From positions 248,001-312,000 of the forward strand of contig NC_007498.2 of assembly GCF_000012885.1 (NCBI RefSeq): a stretch of 64,000 nt of DNA, given 5' to 3'. Both the position numbers and the translations under genes were made by a program. Shown here one piece after another: positions 14,331 through 39,327 of the stretch (position 1 is its first letter; every line of letters begins with the position of its first letter). The DNA is from Syntrophotalea carbinolica DSM 2380. GTDB lineage: Bacteria; Desulfobacterota; Desulfuromonadia; Desulfuromonadales; Syntrophotaleaceae. The notes under the pieces were generated by a model, which saw only the letters and a list, made by a program, of their open reading frames with translations, did no database searches and had not been told where the DNA came from.

Positions 14331-14406
14331 GAGCCGCTAGCTCAGTTGGTAGAGCATCTGACTTTTAATCAGATGGTCGTAGGTTCGATCCCTACGCGGC
14401 TCACCA
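14331..14406 (+). tRNA. tRNA-Lys (anticodon TTT), copy 1
   Basis: 76-nt cloverleaf: acceptor GAGCCGC/GCGGCTC, D-arm GCTCAGTTGGTAGAGC, anticodon loop CTTTTAA flanked by TCTGA/TCAGA, T-arm GTAGG-TTCGATC-CCTAC, and encoded CCA. Differs from copy 2 in two T-loop bases. Confidence 0.97.
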
Positions 14407-14411
14407 TTTAA

Positions 14412-14489
14412 GTCCCTATCGTCTAGCCTGGCCTAGGACACCGCCCTTTCACGGCGGCGACGGGGGTTCGAATCCCCCTGGGGACGCCA
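14412..14489 (+). tRNA. tRNA-Glu (anticodon TTC), copy 1
   Basis: 78-nt tRNA: acceptor GTCCCTA pairing with the 3' GGGGAC, anticodon stem CCGCC/GGCGG with loop CTTTCAC, T-arm GGGGGTTCGAATCCCCC and encoded CCA. Five bases after tRNA-Lys, in the same transcript. Confidence 0.96.
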
Positions 14490-14496
14490 AAGTCAA

Positions 14497-14527
14497 CAGC
14501 CCCACTGCCCACGCGGTAGTGGGGCTG
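14497..14527 (+). terminator. Hairpin after tRNA-Glu copy 1
   Basis: 13-bp stem CAGCCCCACTGCC (14497-14509)/GGTAGTGGGGCTG (14515-14527). Only a short T-containing tail follows, so it is a weak intrinsic terminator or a 3'-processing barrier. The homologous hairpin in copy 2 keeps pairing through matched changes. Confidence 0.7.
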
Positions 14528-14582
14528 TCTGCATATGCGCTTTGCTGTAATGCTGCAGCGATCACTTTTTGGGAAGGGTTGT

Positions 14583-15041
14583 ATGTCCGAATCCCGCTCC
14601 ATGGTGGAGATTTTCAGCGATGGTGCCTGTTCCGGCAATCCGGGGCCTGGCGGTTTCGGTACCCTGTTGCGGTGCGGCGAACGTGTTCGCGAACTGTCGG
14701 GTTTCGATCCTGAAACGACCAACAACCGCATGGAATTGCTTGGCGCCATTGCCGGGCTGGAAGCTCTTACCCGGCCTTGTCGGGTGCGTTTGACTACCGA
14801 TTCCCAGTATGTCTGCAAGGGGATGACGGAGTGGATTCACGGCTGGCAAAAAAAAGGTTGGAAAAACTCCAAAAAAGAAGACGTCGCCAATCGTGACCTC
14901 TGGGAGCGGTTGCTGGTGCTTGTCTCCAAACATGAAGTCAGCTGGCACTGGGTGCGTGGCCATGCCGGGCATGCGGAAAACGAACGTTGCGACGAGCTTG
15001 CCCGTCAGGCTATCGCCGATGGTTGTTCCTCCGTTGTTTGA
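14583..15041 (+). CDS. rnhA: Ribonuclease HI
   Basis: 152 residues. Catalytic acidic residues are visible in [14 protein letters not shown] (first Asp), NRMELLGAI (Glu), TTDSQYV (Asp) and the C-terminal [14 protein letters not shown] (Asp). It cleaves the RNA strand of RNA-DNA hybrids. The ATG follows GGGAAGGG at a proper distance. The gene is wedged between the two tRNA-Lys/Glu copies, 56 bp after the hairpin of copy 1 and just before the promoter of copy 2. Confidence 0.96.
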
Positions 15042-15078
15042 TTTTTTTCTTGTCGGCTGGAAACTCTCATCTTAAAGG

Positions 15079-15107
15079 TTGACTCGCCGAGAGCTTTCGC
15101 GTATAAA
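15079..15107 (+). promoter_or_regulatory. Sigma-70-type promoter of tRNA-Lys/Glu copy 2
   Basis: TTGACT (15079-15084), 17-bp spacer, TATAAA (15102-15107), as in copy 1. Confidence 0.85.
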
Positions 15108-15124
15108 GTGGCCTCCGTCGCAAG

Positions 15125-15200
15125 GAGCCGCTAGCTCAGTTGGTAGAGCATCTGACTTTTAATCAGATGGTCGTAGGTTCGAATCCTACGCGGCTCACCA
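15125..15200 (+). tRNA. tRNA-Lys (anticodon TTT), copy 2
   Basis: 76-nt tRNA as in copy 1 except for the T-loop (TTCGAAT instead of TTCGATC). CCA encoded. Confidence 0.97.
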
Positions 15201-15205
15201 TTTAA

Positions 15206-15283
15206 GTCCCTATCGTCTAGCCTGGCCTAGGACACCGCCCTTTCACGGCGGCGACGGGGGTTCGAATCCCCCTGGGGACGCCA
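15206..15283 (+). tRNA. tRNA-Glu (anticodon TTC), copy 2
   Basis: 78-nt tRNA identical in sequence to copy 1, five bases downstream of tRNA-Lys. CCA encoded. Confidence 0.96.
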
Positions 15284-30480: not shown

Positions 30481-30678
30481 ATGGATGACAGCAAAGAACG
30501 TGATGTTCGTCGGCAGGTGGTTACCAATATAAGAGTGCCTAACTCTGTCTGGAAAAAACGCCTATGTGACACTTTTCTTGATTTAAATCTCATTCCTGAA
30601 CGTTTTTCAGGAAAACTGATGGTCTCCTTCAAAAACGGTGGCATCAGCTATATCGAAAAAACCGAGACATTTAAGTAG
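30481..30678 (+). CDS. Small protein, YezD/DUF2292-like (paralogue of 32445-32678)
   Basis: 65 residues; AGGA lies 11 bases before the ATG. The C-terminal part (FSGKLMVSFKNGGISYIEK) matches 18 of 24 residues of a second small protein 2 kb downstream. The codons differ mostly at third positions outside an identical 23-base block, which shows that both are translated. The pattern of two short beta strands ending in IEK recalls the small YezD/DUF2292 family, a low-confidence match from memory. Function unknown. It is followed by a hairpin and terminator that are also duplicated downstream. Confidence 0.7.
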   Translation: MDDSKERDVRRQVVTNIRVPNSVWKKRLCDTFLDLNLIPERFSGKLMVSFKNGGISYIEKTETFK

Positions 30679-30681
30679 ATT

Positions 30682-30723
30682 GCGCTAATTTCGGCCTCTG
30701 CCCAGAGTGCAGACCCAACGAAA
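30682..30723 (+). promoter_or_regulatory. Attenuator-like RNA leader, copy 1
   Basis: Nested pairing: GCG (30682-30684) with CGC inside the following terminator arm, TTTCG (30689-30693) with CGAAA (30719-30723), and an inner stem TCTGC/GCAGA (30697-30701/30709-30713). The outer pairing uses bases of the terminator 5' arm, so the two folds exclude each other. Copy 2 (32709-32748) keeps the same stems with different loops. The ligand is unknown; a molybdenum-cofactor riboswitch is a possibility I cannot confirm. Confidence 0.5.
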
Positions 30724-30767
30724 CCCGCATTCAATACCAGTATCGATGGTATTGCTGCGGGTTTTTT
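30724..30767 (+). terminator. Intrinsic terminator after the first YezD-like gene
   Basis: CCCGCA (30724-30729)/TGCGGG (30756-30761) with an inner AATACC/GGTATT stem, followed by six T. It lies about 90 bp before the zinc-ribbon gene, so it may control read-through. Confidence 0.85.
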
Positions 30768-30857
30768 GTGTTTGAAATTTAATGTGATCGTAAGTGCATA
30801 AAGTTAAATAATTTTTCAGTCCAACAAAGGAAAGAAGTTGGTTAACACGGAGGTTTT

Positions 30858-31028
30858 ATGGCTATTGTAAAATGTGCGATTTGTGGGGAAGAGGCAGATA
30901 GCGAGCATTACGCTGTCAAGCAATGTTCAAATTGTGGTTTATGGTTTTGTTATAAGCACCTTGGCCAATATAAATCTCAGTGCATTGTCTGCAAAAAATA
31001 TGCACTCAAAAATAAGTACGGCAGGTAA
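30858..31028 (+). CDS. 56-residue zinc-ribbon protein
   Basis: Short gene with an excellent ribosome binding site (CGGAGG, 5 bases before ATG). The product has three CxxC pairs: CAIC (6-9), CSNC (24-27) and CIVC (42-45), with His16 and His35 nearby, consistent with one or two structural zinc sites. No further domain. It lies 37 bp before the NifX-like gene and probably forms a two-gene unit with it. Function unknown; it could be a metal or redox accessory protein. Confidence 0.75.
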   Translation: MAIVKCAICGEEADSEHYAVKQCSNCGLWFCYKHLGQYKSQCIVCKKYALKNKYGR

Positions 31029-31065
31029 ATTGGCATAAAACGAAACGAATCAAGGAGTACGAAAA

Positions 31066-31491
31066 ATGAAAGTTTGTTTTCCTATATCCGAGGATCTCGG
31101 AATCCAAAGCGTAATTTACGGGCATTTCAACTCAGCACCTTTTTTTCTTCTGGTGGATTCAGAGACCAGGGAGACGCAGACGGTGTCCAATTGCGATCCC
31201 CATGAGCCTTTTGCCGGGTGTAATCCTTTTGGTGCGCTGAAGGCCTACGAGATCGATGGTATCATCGCTGCCGGCATGGGAGACAGTGTCCTTCAAGCCA
31301 TGAATCTTTGCGGACACCGCGTATTCGAGGCACAATCGGAACATCTCATCGAAAATATGGAGTTGTTTTTGGAAAAGAAACTTCCAGAAAGCGAGATTCA
31401 GAATAGCGCTGCGGCAGGAAGATGCTCCGACGGTGAAGAAGATACAAATGAATCCGGTTCAGGAGGGTGCGATCACGATCACGAGCATTGA
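31066..31491 (+). CDS. NifX/NafY-type dinitrogenase iron-molybdenum cofactor family protein
   Basis: 141 residues. The PF02579-type fold is visible: MKVCFPISEDLGIQSVIYGH at the start, FFLLVDSETRE, a middle loop with Cys (NCDPHEPFAGCNPFGAL) and AAGMGDSVLQAMNLCGHRVF. Such proteins bind or carry metal clusters such as FeMo-co precursors, and stand-alone versions occur away from nitrogenase genes. The C-terminal tail is acidic and ends CDHDHEH, a likely metal-binding stretch. Its place at the edge of a molybdenum enzyme island supports a metal-handling role. The ATG follows AAGGAGTACGAAA. Confidence 0.85.
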   Translation: MKVCFPISEDLGIQSVIYGHFNSAPFFLLVDSETRETQTVSNCDPHEPFAGCNPFGALKAYEIDGIIAAGMGDSVLQAMNLCGHRVFEAQSEHLIENMELFLEKKLPESEIQNSAAAGRCSDGEEDTNESGSGGCDHDHEH

Positions 31492-31507
31492 CAGCTGAAA
31501 ATCAGTT

Positions 31508-31538
31508 AGTGTGCATCCTGAGTTTCCGGATGCACACT
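31508..31538 (+). terminator. Strong hairpin after the NifX-like gene
   Basis: Perfect 11-bp stem AGTGTGCATCC (31508-31518)/GGATGCACACT (31528-31538), 17 bp after the stop. No T run, so it may need Rho or act as an mRNA-end stabiliser. Confidence 0.55.
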
Positions 31539-31833
31539 ACGTGTATTCATAAGGGCACGGGCCTTTCCGGATGAAAACAAGTTGTGTCTTATCTCCCGGA
31601 GCCGGTGTCCCAGTGGTGTCCAGTGTGTTGTTTCGATGTCGGCAATCCGGCAACCGTAATTCATTCATGGGAGATATGACATCTGAGAATACCTGAGCCG
31701 ACGTCTCCCTGGAGTAATCCTGGGCGAATAGTCCGAAGCGGTATGCTGCCCGTTTTTCAGTAGGGGACGCCAGACTATCGGGGATCTGGCAGATTATTCT
31801 TAGTGCCATCCCCCGTGCTCTATTCTTATCCAT
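31537..31833 (-). CDS. Unrecognised small ORF (98 aa), doubtful
   Basis: 98-residue frame whose ATG overlaps the stop of the upstream minus-strand ORF by eight bases (ATGGATAA). It has no good ribosome binding site of its own. No family recognised. It may be the second half of a gene broken by a frameshift, or noncoding. This ~950-bp stretch has no other supported gene. Confidence 0.25.
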   Translation of the reverse strand: MDKNRARGMALRIICQIPDSLASPTEKRAAYRFGLFAQDYSRETSAQVFSDVISPMNELRLPDCRHRNNTLDTTGTPAPGDKTQLVFIRKGPCPYEYT

Positions 31834-32092
31834 TCACAATAAGCTTTTCGCGGCTTTCCAACATTTGTACAGTTCGAGTTCTGTTTTGCCTGTGCTGCAA
31901 GAGGTGTAGGGCATCCGGCCGTTCGACAAGGTCACTGCCAAGGATTTTGTCTTTATGATGCGGGCATTTCCACTCCGCAACGGAACCCGTCGTTTTTAGC
32001 TGTTCTCCGAACTCCAAACCGTCAGTTGTATATCCTTCAGCTAAGCCGGGTGGTTGTGCGCTGATGCCTGTCGACACACTCAAAACATTCAT
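31826..32092 (-). CDS. Unrecognised small ORF (88 aa), doubtful
   Basis: 88 residues beginning MNVLSVSTGISAQPPG, with AGGA seven bases before ATG. No family recognised. Followed in the next frame by the 98-residue ORF with an eight-base overlap. Could be a real two-gene unit, a frameshifted relic or chance. Confidence 0.3.
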   Translation of the reverse strand: MNVLSVSTGISAQPPGLAEGYTTDGLEFGEQLKTTGSVAEWKCPHHKDKILGSDLVERPDALHLLQHRQNRTRTVQMLESREKLIVNG

Positions 32093-32444
32093 GGGTGAGT
32101 CCTGCTTATTCCCTCCATATCTCTTTTGCGATTGTCAGAAATAGTTGTTTACGGTAATTTCTAGGTTTTTTTATCCGTAACTGTTATTTTTGTCTTGCTT
32201 GTTAATATCCGCTTTGTTAAAACGAGTCTCACGTAAGTCAATCGCCGTTGAAAAAAACGGTGTTTTGAATCTGCATTGTTTAGCCTTGCCGCTGATCGTG
32301 GATGTGCCGGGGGGGCTTGTATGTTGGCAAATTTTTAATAAAGGGAGCTTTGTCTGGGAGGTACGACGGCGTATTTCTGAAGAGCGGAAGTCGTCCAGTC
32401 TGTAGTTCCTCGCGGAATTCATTGCCAAACACGCGGGTGGAAAC

Positions 32445-32678
32445 ATGCATATCCCTGAACTTTGTTATCAGGACAAACTATTGGAACAAAAATCTCGGAC
32501 CCGAGCTCAAAAGTATACTGGCCAGGGGGGACCCAAAAATGTTGCCTCCTGCAAGAGAGCGATCGCAAACTTTTTGGCGAATACCGAATTGATCACGCCG
32601 GATTTCTCCGGCAAGCTGGTCATTTCATTTAAGGAGGGTGGCATCAGCTATATCGAAAAGGTCGAACAGATCAAGTAG
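32445..32678 (+). CDS. Small protein, YezD/DUF2292-like (paralogue of 30481-30678)
   Basis: 77 residues. The last ~37 residues (FSGKLVISFKEGGISYIEK) are homologous to the protein at 30481-30678; the N-terminal parts differ. The start is uncertain: ATG 32445 has only a weak site (GGTGGA). As with the first copy, a structured leader and terminator follow directly, here ending 25 bases before the molybdopterin-binding gene. Confidence 0.65.
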   Translation: MHIPELCYQDKLLEQKSRTRAQKYTGQGGPKNVASCKRAIANFLANTELITPDFSGKLVISFKEGGISYIEKVEQIK

Positions 32679-32708
32679 CCACATCTTTAGATCAGTAAAA
32701 ACAGTCAC

Positions 32709-32748
32709 GCGCTTATTTCGTCCTCTGCGTTAAGCAGACTTCGCGAAA
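32709..32748 (+). promoter_or_regulatory. Attenuator-like RNA leader, copy 2
   Basis: Same architecture as copy 1: GCG (32709-32711), TTTCG (32716-32720)/CGAAA (32744-32748), inner TCTGC (32724-32728)/GCAGA (32734-32738) with a shorter loop. Extending the outer stem would use CGC of the terminator arm. It immediately precedes the terminator and the molybdopterin-binding gene, so it looks like a read-through switch for the aldehyde oxidoreductase unit. Confidence 0.55.
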
Positions 32749-32794
32749 CCCGCATTGATTCCAAGATTTTGGGGATATCAATGCGGGTTTTTTT
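32749..32794 (+). terminator. Intrinsic terminator in the leader of the molybdopterin-binding gene
   Basis: Perfect 11-bp stem CCCGCATTGAT (32749-32759)/ATCAATGCGGG (32777-32787) followed by seven T, ending 24 bases before the ATG at 32819. Being so close to a start codon argues for attenuation as well as simple termination. Confidence 0.9.
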
Positions 32795-32818
32795 ATTCGT
32801 ACAGAAGGAAAAAAAGGC

Positions 32819-33844
32819 ATGTTAGAAATCGTTCCGGTTGAAGAGGCTGTAGGCAAAATTCTTTCTCACGATATCACCCGTATCGTGCCGGGAGAATTGA
32901 AGGAGCGAGCCTATAAAAAAGGCCATATGATCACCGATGAGGATGTGCCGAAACTCAAGCAACTCGGGAAAGACCACATCTATATCCTGAACCTCGCCGA
33001 GGGACTGGTGCATGAGAACCTGGCTGCCGAGCGGATTGCAAGAGCGATCTGCGGTCCGTTCCTGGGTTACGGAGAACCGAATCAAGGTAAAATCGAATTG
33101 ACTTCGGAACTCAACGGTCTGCTGAAAATAAACATTCCCCTGCTGCAAAAACTCAATGAAATTCCGGATGTCACCATTGCAACCCGGTTAACCAATCAGC
33201 CAGTGGGAGTCGGTTCGACAGTGGCGGGCACCCGCATTATTCCCTTGTTTACCCAGGAAGAAAATCTTCTTCGCCTTGAAAGTCTCTGCTCCAAGCATCC
33301 CCCTTTGATTTCGATAAAGCCCTTCCAGCCCTGGCGGATAGGGCTGATTACCACGGGAACGGAAGTGTTTTATGGCCGGATTCCGGATGGTTTCGGGCCG
33401 ATCGTAAAAAGTAAATTTGAAGCGATGGGCAGCGAAGTGTATCGGCAGGATATCGTCCCGGATGAAATTCAGGTCATCGCCGCCGCCATCAACGAACAAG
33501 TGTCTGAAGGTGCGCAGATGGTTGTTCTGACCGGCGGCATGTCTGTCGATCCCGACGATCTAACCCCTGCCGCCATACGAGCTACAGGTGCCAGGGTTAT
33601 TACTTATGGCGCCCCTACCTATCCGGGCGCCATGTTTATGATGGCGGAACTGGATGGAACCCCCATTATCGGGTTGCCCGGTTGCACCATGTACCACAAG
33701 GCCACCATCTTCGAACTCGTTGTTACGCGCCTGCTGGCCGGGGAAACCGTAACGCGATCAGATATTGTGGCATTGGGCCATGGAGGGATTTGTGCCGGAT
33801 GCCAGGTTTGCCATTACCCCAACTGCGGATTCGGCAAAGGTTGA
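32819..33844 (+). CDS. Molybdopterin-binding protein (MoeA/MoCF-like) with four-Cys tail
   Basis: 341 residues. The central-to-C-terminal region is a MoCF/MogA-like molybdopterin-binding domain: IGLITTGTEVFYGRIPDGFG, then VVLTGGMSVDPDDLTPAAIR and GAPTYPGAMFMMAELDGTPIIGLPGC. The N-terminal ~170 residues resemble a shortened MoeA domain (VEEAVGKILSHDITRIVPG). The C-terminus ends with Cys325, Cys328, Cys331 and Cys336, a possible metal or [4Fe-4S] site absent from MoeA and MogA. It lies 64 bp before the aldehyde oxidoreductase and probably loads or modifies its cofactor. Confidence 0.85.
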   Translation: MLEIVPVEEAVGKILSHDITRIVPGELKERAYKKGHMITDEDVPKLKQLGKDHIYILNLAEGLVHENLAAERIARAICGPFLGYGEPNQGKIELTSELNGLLKINIPLLQKLNEIPDVTIATRLTNQPVGVGSTVAGTRIIPLFTQEENLLRLESLCSKHPPLISIKPFQPWRIGLITTGTEVFYGRIPDGFGPIVKSKFEAMGSEVYRQDIVPDEIQVIAAAINEQVSEGAQMVVLTGGMSVDPDDLTPAAIRATGARVITYGAPTYPGAMFMMAELDGTPIIGLPGCTMYHKATIFELVVTRLLAGETVTRSDIVALGHGGICAGCQVCHYPNCGFGKG

Positions 33845-33908: not shown

Positions 33909-36764
33909 ATGATCAAGAAGACTTTAAACGTCAACGGTATCGACCGTGTCCTGATCGTCGATCAGGAATCGCTGCTTAGCGATGTTTTGCGCAAGCAGTT
34001 GCAACTGACTGGTACGAAAGTCGGTTGCGGAACGGGTCAATGCGGCGCTTGCAGCGTTATCGTCGACGGCAAACTGGTGCGCTCCTGTGTCACCAAAATG
34101 AAGCGAATTCCGGACCTGGCCAAAATCACCACCATCGAAGGCATCGGATCGCCCCTGAACCTGCACCCCATTCAGAAGGCGTTTGTCAAAAACGGCGCGA
34201 TTCAATGCGGTTTTTGCACCCCCGGCTTTGTCGTATCCACCAAGCTGCTCCTCGAGCAGAACCCCGATCCGACCCGCGAAGAAGTACGGGACTGGTTCCA
34301 GAAACATCGCAACGCCTGCCGCTGCACCGGCTACATCATGATCGTCGATGCCGTCATGGACGCTGCCAAGGTGTTGCGCGGCGAAATGGCGGAATCCGCC
34401 CTCGATTTCAAATTACCGTCTGACGGCAAAGTTTACGGTACCTGTATGCCGCGTCCGACATCGGTTCCCAAAGTTTGCGGTCTGTGGGATTTCGGGGAAG
34501 ATATGCGTGAGCAACTCCCGGACGATACCCTGGAATGCGCCCTGGTGCAGGCGGAAGTAGCCCATGCCAATATCAAGGGCATCGATACCTCCGAAGCGGA
34601 AAAAATGCCTGGTGTTGTGAAAGTCGTCACCCACAAGGACATCAAAGGCAAAAACCGCATCACCGGCCTGATCACCTTCCCCACCAATAAGGGGGATGGC
34701 TGGGATCGTCCGATTCTCAACGATGAGAAGGTCTTCCAGTTCGGCGACGTTCTGGCCATTGTTTGCGCCGATACCCGTGAACACGCCAAGGCCGCAGCCA
34801 AGAAGGTCGTCCTCGATCTCGAGGTTCTGCCGGCTTACATGAACGCCCTTGCCGCCAAGGCCGAGGATGCCATCGAGATCCATCCCGGTACTCCCAACGT
34901 TTACTACGATTGCATCCTTAAAAAGGGTGAAGAGACCAAGCCTTACTTCGACAAAGCTGCTCATGTCATCGAAGGCACCTACTACCTGGGTCGGCAGCCG
35001 CATATGCCCCTCGAGCCCGATGTCGGTTTCGCCTATATCGATGACGAGGATCGCGTGGTGGTGCATTCCAAATCGATCGGCATCCATCTGCATCACGCCA
35101 TGATCTGCCCGGGTCTCGGCCTCGAGCCCGAAAAGCTGGTGCTCCGGCAGAATCCCACCGGCGCCACCTTCGGCTATAAGTTCAGCCCGACCATGGAGGC
35201 CCTGGTCGCCGCCGCTACTATGGCCACTGGTCGCCCATGCTTCCTGGGCTATGACTGGTTCCAGCAGCAGACCTACACCGGCAAACGGTCCCCGGCATTT
35301 CTGAATGTGCGTCTGGCCGCGGACGAGGACGGTAAATTCCTTGCCGTGGAAACCGACTGGGATCTCGATCACGGTCCCTATTCCGAGTTCGGCGATCTGG
35401 TCACCTGCCGCCAGGCCCAGTTCACCATGGCCGGTTACGATATCAAACACTTCCGCGGCCACGGCCGTACCGTCGCTACGAACCACGCATGGGGTTCGGC
35501 TTTCCGCGGGTATGGGTCGCCGCAGGCCTTTTTGGCCGGCGAATCGCTGGTCGATGAACTCGCCCAGAAAATGGGCGTCGACCCCTTCGAACTGCGTTAC
35601 AAGAACATCTATCGTCCCGGTGCCACCACTCCGACCGGGCAGGAGCCTGAAGTTTACTGCTTTGAAGAGATGTTCGATATCCTGCGTCCCAAATACAAGG
35701 ATGCACTGGAACGGGCAAGGGTCGGTTCCACTGAAACCAAGAAGCGCGGCGTCGGTATCTCCCTCGGGATCTACGGTTGCGGTCTGGACGGTCCGGACAC
35801 CTCCGGTGCCTGGGCTCAGTTGGAAAAAGATGGCAGCGTGACCATCGGCACCGCGTGGGAATGCCACGGTCAGGGTGCGGACATGGGTACGGTGGCCTTC
35901 GCCCATGAAGCCCTGCGTCCGCTGGGCCTGACCCCTGAGCAGATCCACCTGAGCATGTGCGACACCTCTCTGCATCCCAATGCCGGTCCCTCCGGTGGTA
36001 GCCGTCAGAATGTCGTCTCCGGGAATGCCATTCATGCAGCCGCCGTCAATCTGCTCGATGCCATGCGCAAAGACGACGGTACCTATCGCACCTACGACGA
36101 AATGATTGCCGACGGCATCGACGTCAAGCATGAAGGTACCTTTACCACTCCCTGTACGCATATGGACCTCGACGATCAGCAGGGTAATCCCTTCTGCATC
36201 TACATGTATGCCTTGTTCATGTCCGAGGTGGTGGTGGACATCACCACCGGCAAGACCGAAGTGGTGAAAATGACCTATGTCGGCGACAACGGCACCATTA
36301 CCAATCGCCTGTTGGTCGACGGCCAGGTGTATGGCGGTCTGGCTCAAGGTATCGGCCTGGGTCTTAGTGAGGACTTCGAATTTATCCAGGCCCATTCGCA
36401 CATGATCGGCGCCGGGTTCCCCTTCATCAAGGATGTGCCCGATGACCTGGAGCTGATTTACGTCGAAACGCCTCGTAGAGACGGGGCCCTCGGACAAGGT
36501 GGTTGTGGTGAAGGTCCGCTTACTTCTCCCCACGTCTCCATTATCAACGCCATCGATCACGCTTGCGGGGCACGTATCCGCGCCTTGCCGGCATATCCCG
36601 AGAAGGTTCTGCAGGCACTGCAGTCCGAGAAAAAGTCCTTCGATGTGGAGGACGCACTGGAAGGCGGCTGGATTTGCGACAGCGTCGATGCAGAACCGCC
36701 TAACAAGAAGAAGAAAGCCAAAAAAGCAGCTGGGACGGGTGCCTCGGTTGCTGCTGCCGATTAA
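33909..36764 (+). CDS. mop: Molybdenum aldehyde oxidoreductase (xanthine oxidase family, Mop-like)
   Basis: 951 residues, closely similar along its length to Desulfovibrio gigas Mop as I remember that sequence. Plant-type [2Fe-2S] ligands Cys40, 45, 48, 60; second [2Fe-2S] ligands Cys100, 103, 137, 139; then the molybdopterin domains (GLITFPTNKGDGWDRPI, GRQPHMPLEPDV, ATNHAWGSAFRGYGSPQAF, NAGPSGGSRQN). The catalytic Glu is at about residue 868 in GCGEGPLTSPH. It has no FAD domain, as in Mop, so electrons should go to a separate acceptor. The C-terminus carries an extra ~40 residues with a Lys-rich run (NKKKKAKKAA) absent from Mop. Oxidises aldehydes to acids; substrate unproven. Good ribosome binding site (AAGGAGG). 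Confidence 0.93.
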   Translation: MIKKTLNVNGIDRVLIVDQESLLSDVLRKQLQLTGTKVGCGTGQCGACSVIVDGKLVRSCVTKMKRIPDLAKITTIEGIGSPLNLHPIQKAFVKNGAIQCGFCTPGFVVSTKLLLEQNPDPTREEVRDWFQKHRNACRCTGYIMIVDAVMDAAKVLRGEMAESALDFKLPSDGKVYGTCMPRPTSVPKVCGLWDFGEDMREQLPDDTLECALVQAEVAHANIKGIDTSEAEKMPGVVKVVTHKDIKGKNRITGLITFPTNKGDGWDRPILNDEKVFQFGDVLAIVCADTREHAKAAAKKVVLDLEVLPAYMNALAAKAEDAIEIHPGTPNVYYDCILKKGEETKPYFDKAAHVIEGTYYLGRQPHMPLEPDVGFAYIDDEDRVVVHSKSIGIHLHHAMICPGLGLEPEKLVLRQNPTGATFGYKFSPTMEALVAAATMATGRPCFLGYDWFQQQTYTGKRSPAFLNVRLAADEDGKFLAVETDWDLDHGPYSEFGDLVTCRQAQFTMAGYDIKHFRGHGRTVATNHAWGSAFRGYGSPQAFLAGESLVDELAQKMGVDPFELRYKNIYRPGATTPTGQEPEVYCFEEMFDILRPKYKDALERARVGSTETKKRGVGISLGIYGCGLDGPDTSGAWAQLEKDGSVTIGTAWECHGQGADMGTVAFAHEALRPLGLTPEQIHLSMCDTSLHPNAGPSGGSRQNVVSGNAIHAAAVNLLDAMRKDDGTYRTYDEMIADGIDVKHEGTFTTPCTHMDLDDQQGNPFCIYMYALFMSEVVVDITTGKTEVVKMTYVGDNGTITNRLLVDGQVYGGLAQGIGLGLSEDFEFIQAHSHMIGAGFPFIKDVPDDLELIYVETPRRDGALGQGGCGEGPLTSPHVSIINAIDHACGARIRALPAYPEKVLQALQSEKKSFDVEDALEGGWICDSVDAEPPNKKKKAKKAAGTGASVAAAD

Positions 36765-36838: not shown

Positions 36839-37011
36839 GACAGGTCATCAGTACGATGGAGGGCGTCAGACTGCCCTTCATCGCGTTCTTTTATCTGATA
36901 CCGGCGTCACAATTCTGCGCATCTAATCTTAATCAGGGGACTGATCCCGTGTTCGTTCAGGAGGCGCTACGGCGTTTGCTGAGCTATAGCTTAGAGAGAA
37001 GGAAGCACTCG

Positions 37012-39327
37012 ATGGAAAAAGAACAACGCATCGCGTGGGAGGCCCGATGTATTCAGGAAGAGCCTCCGGCCTGTTCGACAACCTGTCCCCTGCATGTCGA
37101 CATCCGTCAGTTCATGCGGGAGATGGCTGATGGCAACATGGAAGAGGCTTACAAGGTGTTGTGTAAAAATCTGCCTTTTCCCGGGATATTCGGACGCATC
37201 TGCAATCATCCTTGTGAGACAAAATGTCGTCGCGGGGAAGTTGGCGAGGCGCTTGGCATCGGGTCTCTGGAGCGGTTTTGCGTGGAATTTCATGGCGTGC
37301 CGGATCGGGTTAAACTGCTGCCCCGCAAAAGCAAGACGGTGGCGGTTGTCGGCGGCGATGTTGCCGGCCTGGTCGCTGCCCATGACCTGCGCAAAAAAGG
37401 CTACGGAGTCACCTTGTTGGAAACGGCTTCGCAATTGGGCGCGACGTTTCGCAAATTTTCCGAAGATCTGCTACCGGATGCGACGCTTGAAGACGAGCTG
37501 GCCGTTCTGAAAAATATGCGGGTGGAGATACTGCTTGGTGCCGTTCTGGACGACGCTGCGTTCGAAAACCTTTGCGGCGAATTTGACGCTGTATTCATCG
37601 ATCGCACCTGCCCAACTTGTGCATCCCTGCCCCTTGATAACGATGCTTCCGGTCTGATTGCCGTCGATCCTGTTACCGGTGGAACTTCGCGACCGGAAGT
37701 GTTTGCCGGTGGGCAAGGCGGCGATGTGCCGATCATGCTGGCTGCCGCAGGTCGCAAGGGGGCGTTGTCTATCGAGCGTTTTCTGCAGCAGGCCCATATG
37801 ACCATCGGCCGGGAAAACGATGGGCCTTACGAAAGCCGGCTTTACACCAACCTCGAAGGAATCGCACCTCTTGACCGGGTTCGTCCCGCGGATGTCGATG
37901 CCGGCTATACAGCGGATGAGGCGATGCGGGAAGCGGCTCGTTGCATCCAGTGCGAATGTCTTGAGTGCGTCAAGGTCTGTCAGTATCTGGCGCATTACAA
38001 AAAGTATCCGAAGAAATATATTCGTCAGTTTTTCAACAACGAAAAGGTATTGCTTGGCGCCTCCCACAGCTCCAACCAGACGATCAACTCTTGTACCCAT
38101 TGCGGGTTGTGCGCAGCTGTTTGCCCCAATGATCTTCACATGGGGGAAGTCTGTCTTGAGGGGCGCTACGCCATGTTGCAGGGCGACTATATGCCCCCCT
38201 CGGCCCACGAATTCGCTTTGCAGGATATGGCGTTCAGTACCAGCGACGAGTTTGTTCTGTCCCGTCATCAACCGGGTACCCGGCAGAGTGCCTATCTTTA
38301 TTTTCCCAGTTGCCAGTTAAGTGCCACAGCCCCTGGAGAGGTTTTGCAATCGTACCGTGTGCTATGCGAAAAGCTGTCCGGCGGGGTCGGCATTCTACTT
38401 GGGTGCTGCGGAGCACCCGCCTTCTGGTCCGGTCGTGATCCCCTTTTTCGCGAGACCCTGGATACCATCCGCAAGCAATGGCAGGCCATGGGACAGCCCA
38501 AAGTGATCACCGCCTGCTGCACCTGTCAGAGCGTGTTCAAGGAGCATCTTCCCGAAATATCCTCAACGTTGCTTTGGCAGGTTCTGGAAAACAACGCGCT
38601 CATCGATAAGGCGCTCCGGGAAGAGGTTGCCGGTCATGCGGTCGCGGTGCTCGATCCCTGCAGCACCCGCCACGATCCGCAAGCTCAAAGCGGTGTGCGA
38701 CGCATTCTCGGCGATCTTGGGTTTACCGTTGAGGAATTGCCCCTTTCCGGAGCAATGGCCGAATGTTGCGGATACGGCGGATTGGTTTTCAACGCCAATC
38801 CCCAACTGGATAACGCCATCGTCACTCGCCGTGCGGAGTACAGTGAGCGGGACTATCTGGCTTACTGCGCCATGTGTCGCGATAAATTCGTTAACGTGGG
38901 TAAGCGTACGGCGCATCTTATCGAGTTGCTGTTCCCTTCTGTGGATGGCAACGACCCCTGGGCGCGCGGCTGGATTTCCTGGTACGAGCGTCGCAAGAAC
39001 CGTCAGCGGGTAAAGGACGAACTGCTGGCCGATCTTGGTGAAACCGTGGAGCGTGCCATGGAACCTTATGACAAAATCGTTTTGCACATCGACCCCGAAC
39101 TGCTTCGCACTATTGACAGCCGCCGCATCCTGGAGAGCGATCTGCGCCAGGTCGTTCACCATGCCGAAAAGACGGGCAAGCGCCTGCGTCATAACCAGAA
39201 TGGCCAGTTTCGCGCCAACCTCAAATTGGGCAATACCACCTTTTGGGTTGATTACGCCCCCGATGGAGAAGGTTACCGGGTTCACAATGCTTATTGTCAC
39301 CGTATGAACGTTACGGGGGTGAAGTAA
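37012..39327 (+). CDS. Iron-sulfur flavoprotein-like oxidoreductase with CCG domains (dicluster protein)
   Basis: 771 residues. N-terminal GltD-like Cys region (Cys21, 25, 64, 68, 72), then a short Rossmann segment at ~108-270 whose nucleotide loop reads VVGGDVAGL, so the middle Gly of GxGxxG is Asp and the second dinucleotide domain is missing. Next come two [4Fe-4S]-type motifs, CIQCECLECVKVC (~312-325) and CTHCGLCAAVCP (~361-372). Two heterodisulfide-reductase-like CCG motifs (~464 and ~583) and a novel C-terminal ~85 residues end the chain. Likely an electron carrier for the aldehyde oxidoreductase or its maturation. ATG 37012 follows GAGAAGGAAG; the in-frame start at 36856 is rejected. 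Similar proteins occur beside D. vulgaris DVU_1559-type enzymes. Confidence 0.85.
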   Translation: MEKEQRIAWEARCIQEEPPACSTTCPLHVDIRQFMREMADGNMEEAYKVLCKNLPFPGIFGRICNHPCETKCRRGEVGEALGIGSLERFCVEFHGVPDRVKLLPRKSKTVAVVGGDVAGLVAAHDLRKKGYGVTLLETASQLGATFRKFSEDLLPDATLEDELAVLKNMRVEILLGAVLDDAAFENLCGEFDAVFIDRTCPTCASLPLDNDASGLIAVDPVTGGTSRPEVFAGGQGGDVPIMLAAAGRKGALSIERFLQQAHMTIGRENDGPYESRLYTNLEGIAPLDRVRPADVDAGYTADEAMREAARCIQCECLECVKVCQYLAHYKKYPKKYIRQFFNNEKVLLGASHSSNQTINSCTHCGLCAAVCPNDLHMGEVCLEGRYAMLQGDYMPPSAHEFALQDMAFSTSDEFVLSRHQPGTRQSAYLYFPSCQLSATAPGEVLQSYRVLCEKLSGGVGILLGCCGAPAFWSGRDPLFRETLDTIRKQWQAMGQPKVITACCTCQSVFKEHLPEISSTLLWQVLENNALIDKALREEVAGHAVAVLDPCSTRHDPQAQSGVRRILGDLGFTVEELPLSGAMAECCGYGGLVFNANPQLDNAIVTRRAEYSERDYLAYCAMCRDKFVNVGKRTAHLIELLFPSVDGNDPWARGWISWYERRKNRQRVKDELLADLGETVERAMEPYDKIVLHIDPELLRTIDSRRILESDLRQVVHHAEKTGKRLRHNQNGQFRANLKLGNTTFWVDYAPDGEGYRVHNAYCHRMNVTGVK

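Follow-up and report, generated by a model that had tools for sequence, protein, structure and literature searches.

Small proteins encoded beside Moco-II RNA attenuators: a candidate antitermination system at molybdenum-related genes of Syntrophotalea carbinolica

We analyzed a stretch of 64,000 nucleotides (nt) from Syntrophotalea carbinolica DSM 2380 (NC_007498.2, positions 248,001–312,000, forward strand), hereafter the window, in which a compact module occurs twice: a gene for a small protein is followed by a nested hairpin and then by an intrinsic terminator, in the same order in both copies (Table 1). A preliminary description of this DNA had pointed out the duplication and taken it for a shared switch responding to molybdenum (Mo), a cofactor or the small protein itself. 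The two proteins indeed share 18 of their 24 C-terminal residues, and across the corresponding 72 nt the copies differ 6, 2 and 14 times at codon positions 1, 2 and 3, i.e., mostly, not purely, synonymously. Each hairpin is followed, as described, by a terminator opening with CCCGC, which pairs with GCGGG ahead of a T-run. The downstream genes are likewise those it named, namely a zinc ribbon and a NifX-like protein after copy 1, and a molybdopterin-binding domain protein and an aldehyde oxidoreductase after copy 2. Our analysis assigns the hairpin to the Moco-II RNA family and suggests that the small protein is its partner in antitermination.

Searches with Infernal place both nested hairpins, which had been recognized as the same structure, in the Rfam family Moco-II (RF01713), above its gathering score of 35. 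The Moco motif (RF01055), which the preliminary description had singled out for an Rfam check, gave no match at the gathering score in the 64,000 bases. The alignment of copy 1 displays the conserved two-helix core with its conserved internal loops (by column and pair counts), and the position upstream of Mo-cofactor-related genes, another trait of Moco-II, is found here too. A table in the 2010 report of the motif, a source covered in part, lists it as a probable RNA and certainly cis-regulatory, with a question mark under riboswitch (Weinberg et al. 2010, PMC2864571); as far as the portions of the literature covered show, Moco-II has been an orphan motif since.

To establish its distribution, we combined covariance-model and pattern scans. 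The genome of S. carbinolica (3,665,893 bases) holds four Moco-II sites, and the family scan yielded 32 in 8 of 14 genomes, one of them under the cut-off. An exact pattern matched 18 of the 277 genomes of the class (none with the pattern reversed as a control), and a permissive covariance-model scan of 15 selected genomes found 41 sites, spread over 12 of them (two sites under the cut-off); a permissive scan over 38 genomes of the order found two. The exact pattern missed 2 of the 20 Moco-II genomes (G538 and G581), which the covariance model detects. Under strict filters a scan of 395 genomes of the phylum with RF01713 recovered only the S. carbinolica genome, the rest coming from the permissive and pattern scans. 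The covariance model was negative in 34 more genomes, including all nine that have the aldehyde oxidoreductase without Moco-II, while the same query matches the S. carbinolica genome. In total we collected 73 sites from 20 genomes, all belonging to one class: the two window copies and 71 others, three of which lie just under the gathering score. Three pattern matches elsewhere in the phylum were rejected; since they do not resemble Moco-II and the reversed pattern gave four, we take Moco-II to have been observed in this class alone.

The Rfam structure of Moco-II covers two inner helices only. The preliminary description had proposed that the outer hairpin extends through GCG:CGC into the terminator arm, so that the two folds exclude each other, and this extension proves real: the clamp, here P0, is paired in 216 of 219 cells across the 73 sites, against at most 144 in a slid control. 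In the 72 distinct sites the clamp shows a single two-sided change (A-U) and two G-U pairs, and it is broken in one. Covariation in the inner helix is strong (351 of 360 cells pair; shuffles reach at most 326), and the covarying homologues expected in related genomes are thus present. We scored the terminator as overlapping where a stem with four or more base pairs begins within the terminal CCCGC and runs up to a T-run. Such overlap occurs at 59 of the 73 sites, compared with a mean of 2.9 and a maximum of 8 in 200 trials with shuffled downstream DNA, and with only four sites when the neighbouring CGAAA is substituted for CCCGC.

Folding was predicted for 58 of the 59 overlap sites. Before the 3' arm of the terminator is included, the fold contains P0 at 47 of these sites, P1 at 55 and P2 at 57; in the complete stretch the terminator forms at all 58 (sites selected for having one) and P0 at none, and forcing P0 and P1 to form costs a predicted mean of 12 kcal/mol (range 4.5–20, 58 sites). 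The antiterminator hairpin and the terminator are therefore mutually exclusive by prediction, and because the Moco-II helices form early but the terminator wins in the finished predicted fold, the element would be an on-switch with termination as its default. On these models each module is very probably a transcription attenuator with Moco-II as the antiterminator. Some observations count against this: the overlap is absent at 14 of the 73 sites, in six for want of a T-run in range, and the 14 include several imperfect hairpins and most uptake-operon sites of the organism's own family; moreover, P0 varies at just four of the 73 sites, and its shuffle test is marginal (0.0475). The idea of a shared switch is supported for both loci by the known RNA family, the conserved terminator overlap and the covarying homologues.

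Table 1. Features of the two modules in the window, followed by Moco-II arrangements at other loci (positions refer to the locus named; aa, amino acids; pI, isoelectric point)
Feature	Position	Strand	Remarks
Small protein 1	30481..30678	+	65 aa, pI 9.6; orthologue present in all 8 of the family's Moco-II genomes
Moco-II RNA copy 1	30681..30728	+	58.3 bits; outer clamp P0 = 30682-30684 with 30726-30728
Intrinsic terminator 1	30724..30767	+	5' arm CCCGC (30724-30728) = 3' end of Moco-II copy 1; T-run ends 30767
Zinc-ribbon protein	30858..31028	+	56 aa; downstream of copy 1
NifX/NafY-like protein	31066..31491	+	Nitro_FeMo-Co, E 7.7e-9
Small protein 2	32445..32678	+	77 aa, pI 9.2; N-terminus differs, C-terminal block same as protein 1
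Moco-II RNA copy 2	32708..32753	+	50.5 bits; P0 = 32709-32711 with 32751-32753
Intrinsic terminator 2	32749..32794	+	CCCGC at 32749-32753; overlaps Moco-II copy 2; T-run ends 32794
Molybdopterin-binding (MoCF_biosynth) protein	32819..33844	+	domain match
Molybdopterin-dependent aldehyde oxidoreductase	33909..36764	+	NF045668, 1617 bits
Pyridine nucleotide-disulfide oxidoreductase/dicluster-binding protein	36856..39327	+	NF045663
Tandem Moco-II ahead of uptake genes, L042	6294-6413		
Tandem Moco-II ahead of uptake genes, L033	from 9531		
Tandem Moco-II ahead of uptake genes, L040	from 1138		
Tandem Moco-II ahead of uptake genes, L048	near 5324		
RF01055 and Moco-II in series			L121, L135, L143, L144, L146, L147, L148, L149

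The small proteins are 57–84 aa long and basic (pI 9.2–10 in five examples, and 8.0–9.6 in nine weak homologues discussed below). An alignment of 24 relatives has a near-constant C-terminal block around the pattern F-GK----FK-GG----E. Over all pairs of 28 copies, differences in this block number 1668, 689 and 5041 at the three codon positions; as they concentrate at third positions (5041 of 7398), the small protein is a real, selected gene. No antiterminator domain, neither the RNA-binding CAT nor the PRD, was matched in Pfam by the window proteins at E 0.1 or by the 24 members at E 1, and a sequence search of the Protein Data Bank returned nothing credible. We take the sequence pattern to resemble that of the DUF2292/YezD family (PF10055). 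At its cut-off of 22 bits neither the window proteins nor any of the 24 members match it, and a distant homologue at locus L227 scores a sub-threshold 12.6 bits. Among the matches listed for YezD/DUF2292 in the literature, of which one dealt with bacterial genes, there was no functional study.

Using E below 1e-8 as the definition of a strong match, we found the small protein in 19 of the 20 genomes that carry Moco-II. The 251 remaining genomes of the class gave no strong match and, in 10 cases, weak ones; at E 1e-5 the protein is absent from the 246 other genomes of a phylum sample. Twenty-eight genomes encode the aldehyde oxidoreductase: 18 have both Moco-II and the protein, one has Moco-II only, none has the protein only and nine have neither. 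Since the enzyme is present in nine genomes that have no Moco-II and no strong protein match, the small protein tracks Moco-II more closely than it tracks the enzyme. Three genomes with oxidoreductase matches of at most 501 bits (G408, G492 and G637) were left out of the 28, whereas G538 and G581 were retained though under the cut-off because their matches are protein fragments; G406, one of the nine, is 67% complete and has its oxidoreductase gene on a 4.7 kb contig. On the same strand, Moco-II lies downstream within 260 nt of 24 of the 29 small-protein genes and within 1.41 kb of 28. Given that the genes are mostly near a Moco-II while many Moco-II sites have no gene, and that G576 has eight sites and one strong small-protein gene, a factor acting in trans fits well. 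In G395, G399, G403 and G405 small protein 2 sits between two Moco-II sites, an arrangement that resembles the bgl operon.

A second protein-RNA pair emerged from the weak matches. Thirteen loci (L223–L230 and L232–L236) were picked by protein alone, and Moco-II was not found beside any of them. A hairpin that overlaps a terminator lies downstream of all 13 genes (beyond one other gene in L226), and in 12 it has a common form, motif A, which was spotted by eye and tested afterwards: GGG-(3)-CUU-(1)-CYG-(1)-stem-loop-(3)-CRG-(1)-AAG-CCC, where CCC is the 5' arm of the terminator. Motif A is closed by GGG:CCC, the counterpart of GCG:CGC in Moco-II. Searches of Rfam found nothing corresponding to motif A, with E up to 0.05 allowed for nine loci and the gathering score applied to the others. 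In 12 sequences from 11 loci, 91.6% of the cells pair; the covariation score is 0.445 against 0.170 in shuffles (0 of 500) and at most 0.106 when slid, with the compensatory change CUG:CAG to CCG:CGG in five of the 12. A model of motif A run over 91 sources (1.01 Mb) recovered the 12 training sites and two more. One is L226, which lay outside the training set and has the motif at 42.2 bits in a small-protein operon with a third form of the pair, CAG:CUG; the other is L147, in a cluster of metal-uptake genes that also holds Moco-II and RF01055, with no small gene adjoining the motif. The model found none in 30 RF01055 loci, and a plasmid search with one YezD-like protein gave no match. The thirteenth homologue, L225, precedes a third kind of hairpin. 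In L230, L235 and L236 a cyclic di-GMP (c-di-GMP-I) riboswitch follows. Five Geobacter riboswitch candidates are reported in a source covered in part (PMC11109978), one of which may correspond to motif A. By type, strong-match proteins thus go with Moco-II in 28 of 29 genes and YezD-like proteins with motif A in 12 of 12 loci, with L225 as a third pair.

From these observations we lean towards the small protein being the factor that holds Moco-II closed, a reading drawn from co-occurrence, adjacency and the second pair; as the input of the switch it is the best-supported reading, with binding and signal both conjectural. With nothing bound, the terminator would win and the downstream Mo genes would be off, whereas a Moco-II fold held closed would permit read-through. 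The bolder step is that the small basic protein from the upstream gene would hold the fold, working in trans on the cell's Moco-II copies, and that it would be one of a broader set of YezD-like small proteins whose genes adjoin their own attenuators. A state related to the Mo or tungsten (W) cofactor might in turn be reported by the protein or by the RNA. A wider proposal is plausible, if somewhat short of probable: these would form a new class of self-contained antitermination systems, in which helix-plus-hairpin proteins of about 50–85 residues are encoded upstream of their own RNA attenuators and change together with the RNA, standing in series with Moco/W and c-di-GMP riboswitches, and on this view Moco-II would act as an antiterminator that binds a protein and would no longer count as an orphan riboswitch.

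Several observations weigh against the partnership. For 49 of the 73 Moco-II sites the 260 nt upstream contain no small gene, and one gene (G582 C110, L231) has no adjoining Moco-II. In G640, which carries two Moco-II sites, the assembly (about 240 contigs) contains no strong match to the small protein, nor any match in the approximately 1.6 kb upstream of its oxidoreductase-side Moco-II. The AlphaFold2 models, a helix and a beta-hairpin, are weak (predicted local distance difference test scores of 59 and 62), and a fold search with one of the two gave no convincing match. Within genera, gain and loss mostly affect the RNA, the protein and the oxidoreductase locus jointly, so that the co-occurrence is confounded and independent events are few; the Fisher values for co-occurrence and for the protein-RNA pairing (28 and 12) ignore relatedness, and one genus contributes the near-duplicates L224 and L232. 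The absence of Moco-II from most of the 251 genomes rests on the exact pattern that misses 2 of 20. Finally, RF01055 lies directly upstream of L227 and L228 and one gene upstream of L231, and two c-di-GMP-I-GGC riboswitches lie upstream of L225; small genes thus also stand behind other riboswitches and could therefore be merely controlled metabolic genes.

A close known parallel is the group of BglG/SacY/LicT antiterminators with their RAT hairpins, which are alike in having a small hairpin that overlaps a terminator and an antiterminator gene beside its own site (PMC9981650, covered in part). The small proteins studied here, in contrast, are unrelated to these by Pfam, with no antiterminator domain found, and are 57–84 aa long. 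Our best reading is that they would be small antiterminators, each encoded next to its own attenuator, that follow the logic of BglG without being related to it. The RNA itself is a member of Moco-II, and the proposed protein partnership would be new and could define a new class. Literature searches did not find the P0 clamp, the overlapping terminator, the tandems or the small-protein tie of Moco-II, though the additional files of PMC2864571, outside the scope of these searches, may mention some. No title or abstract among the matches listed concerned a small protein with Moco-II or an RF01055/Moco-II tandem, and the part of a 2022 review of tandem riboswitches that was covered names Moco and Wco tandems only (PMC9481103).

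Where they are readable, the genes downstream of Moco-II include the oxidoreductase operon, a NuoE/NuoF/formate-dehydrogenase-like operon, FecCD-type uptake genes with FmdE, an aminotransferase-V (cysteine-desulfurase-like), DsrC and others. RF01055, the Moco/W-cofactor riboswitch (PMC2408646, covered in part), is alike in gene set and occurs in series with Moco-II or in its place, differing from it in sequence and structure. At 8 of the 73 sites RF01055 lies 42–130 nt upstream of Moco-II on the same strand (two of these RF01055 are under the gathering score), and in 3 of the 9 Moco-II-free genomes with the oxidoreductase (G535, G615 and G620) it replaces Moco-II before the same NifX-MoaB-oxidoreductase operon. 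These neighbours, together with RF01055 standing in its place, support the link of Moco-II to Mo/W that the preliminary description had suggested.

One further reading, compatible with the others, is a division of labour in which RF01055 without its P3 helix reads the W cofactor and Moco-II the Mo side, whatever the sensor molecule. The four RF01055 elements of the S. carbinolica genome precede three aldehyde ferredoxin oxidoreductase (AFOR) genes and moeA, and AFOR are tungsten enzymes. P3 is absent from all eight RF01055 alignments shown, which come from four loci of other genomes; in the portion covered of the original study, P3-less RF01055 is assigned to the W cofactor (Regulski 2008, PMC2408646). 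We hold this division to be possible though on the doubtful side, as RF01055 is also found ahead of the Mo-type oxidoreductase operon in the three genomes named above and uptake operons carry both elements.

Rather unlikely, in our view, is that Moco-II works unaided as a riboswitch, sensing a Mo-cofactor-related ligand, and that the small protein is just a co-transcribed member of the Mo/W gene set. In its favour, Moco-II mostly precedes Mo/W-related genes, RF01055 can take its place ahead of the same operon, and RF01055 is also found upstream of some small-protein genes. Yet just one of the 20 Moco-II genomes is without a strong small-protein match, and the distant homologues adjoin a different attenuator, which a purely metabolic role does not predict. 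The series sites also speak against it: in predicted folds the antiterminator pairing of the RF01055 part precedes completion of its terminator in three of eight (the other five being negative or uninformative), so that it folds like an off-switch in those three, and because Moco-II is a predicted on-switch, the two elements in series would not read the same signal.

A role for the small gene as a leader is very improbable. Translation-coupled attenuation would have the ribosome that finishes the small open reading frame cover the 5' strand of Moco-II and so set termination, with the peptide irrelevant. The stop codon of copy 1 does lie 2 nt before Moco-II, and the gap is 1–12 nt in seven other genes, but it is 29 nt in copy 2 and 25 nt to 1.4 kb in the remainder; the third-position bias moreover bespeaks strong selection on the amino-acid sequence, and 49 of the 73 Moco-II sites are without a small gene within 260 nt. 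That the hairpins are no switch and the modules simply end in ordinary terminators after a conserved small gene is the least credible reading, for although both do end in a good terminator, the RNA is a curated family, its exact overlap is conserved and it stands ahead of genes without a small reading frame.

If the small protein is the Moco-II partner, a riboswitch candidate would be reclassified, tiny proteins of no known function would acquire a role and a compact protein-RNA switch would become available for study. The RF01055–Moco-II series, along with target genes that divide in part into a Mo and a W group, makes it directly testable how these bacteria distinguish the two cofactors.

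Moco-II also occurs in tandem with itself. In G401 both copies are complete and separated by 28 nt; G000, G402 and G398 each have one copy followed by a damaged second one (by eye). In three of these four genomes, pairing is possible between the 3' half of the upstream copy and the 5' half of the downstream copy. A truncated RF01055-like sequence was seen by eye immediately upstream of Moco-II in G575 (L141, around 1500). Within the window, positions 31950-31995 contain a possible decayed Moco-II (ATTTCC...AACGGAACCCGT), likewise noticed by eye; four relatives carry Moco-II there, upstream of small protein 2. Elsewhere in the window (14331-15280), tRNA genes form two near-identical pairs in direct repeat (Rfam tRNA matches at 14331, 14412, 15125 and 15206).

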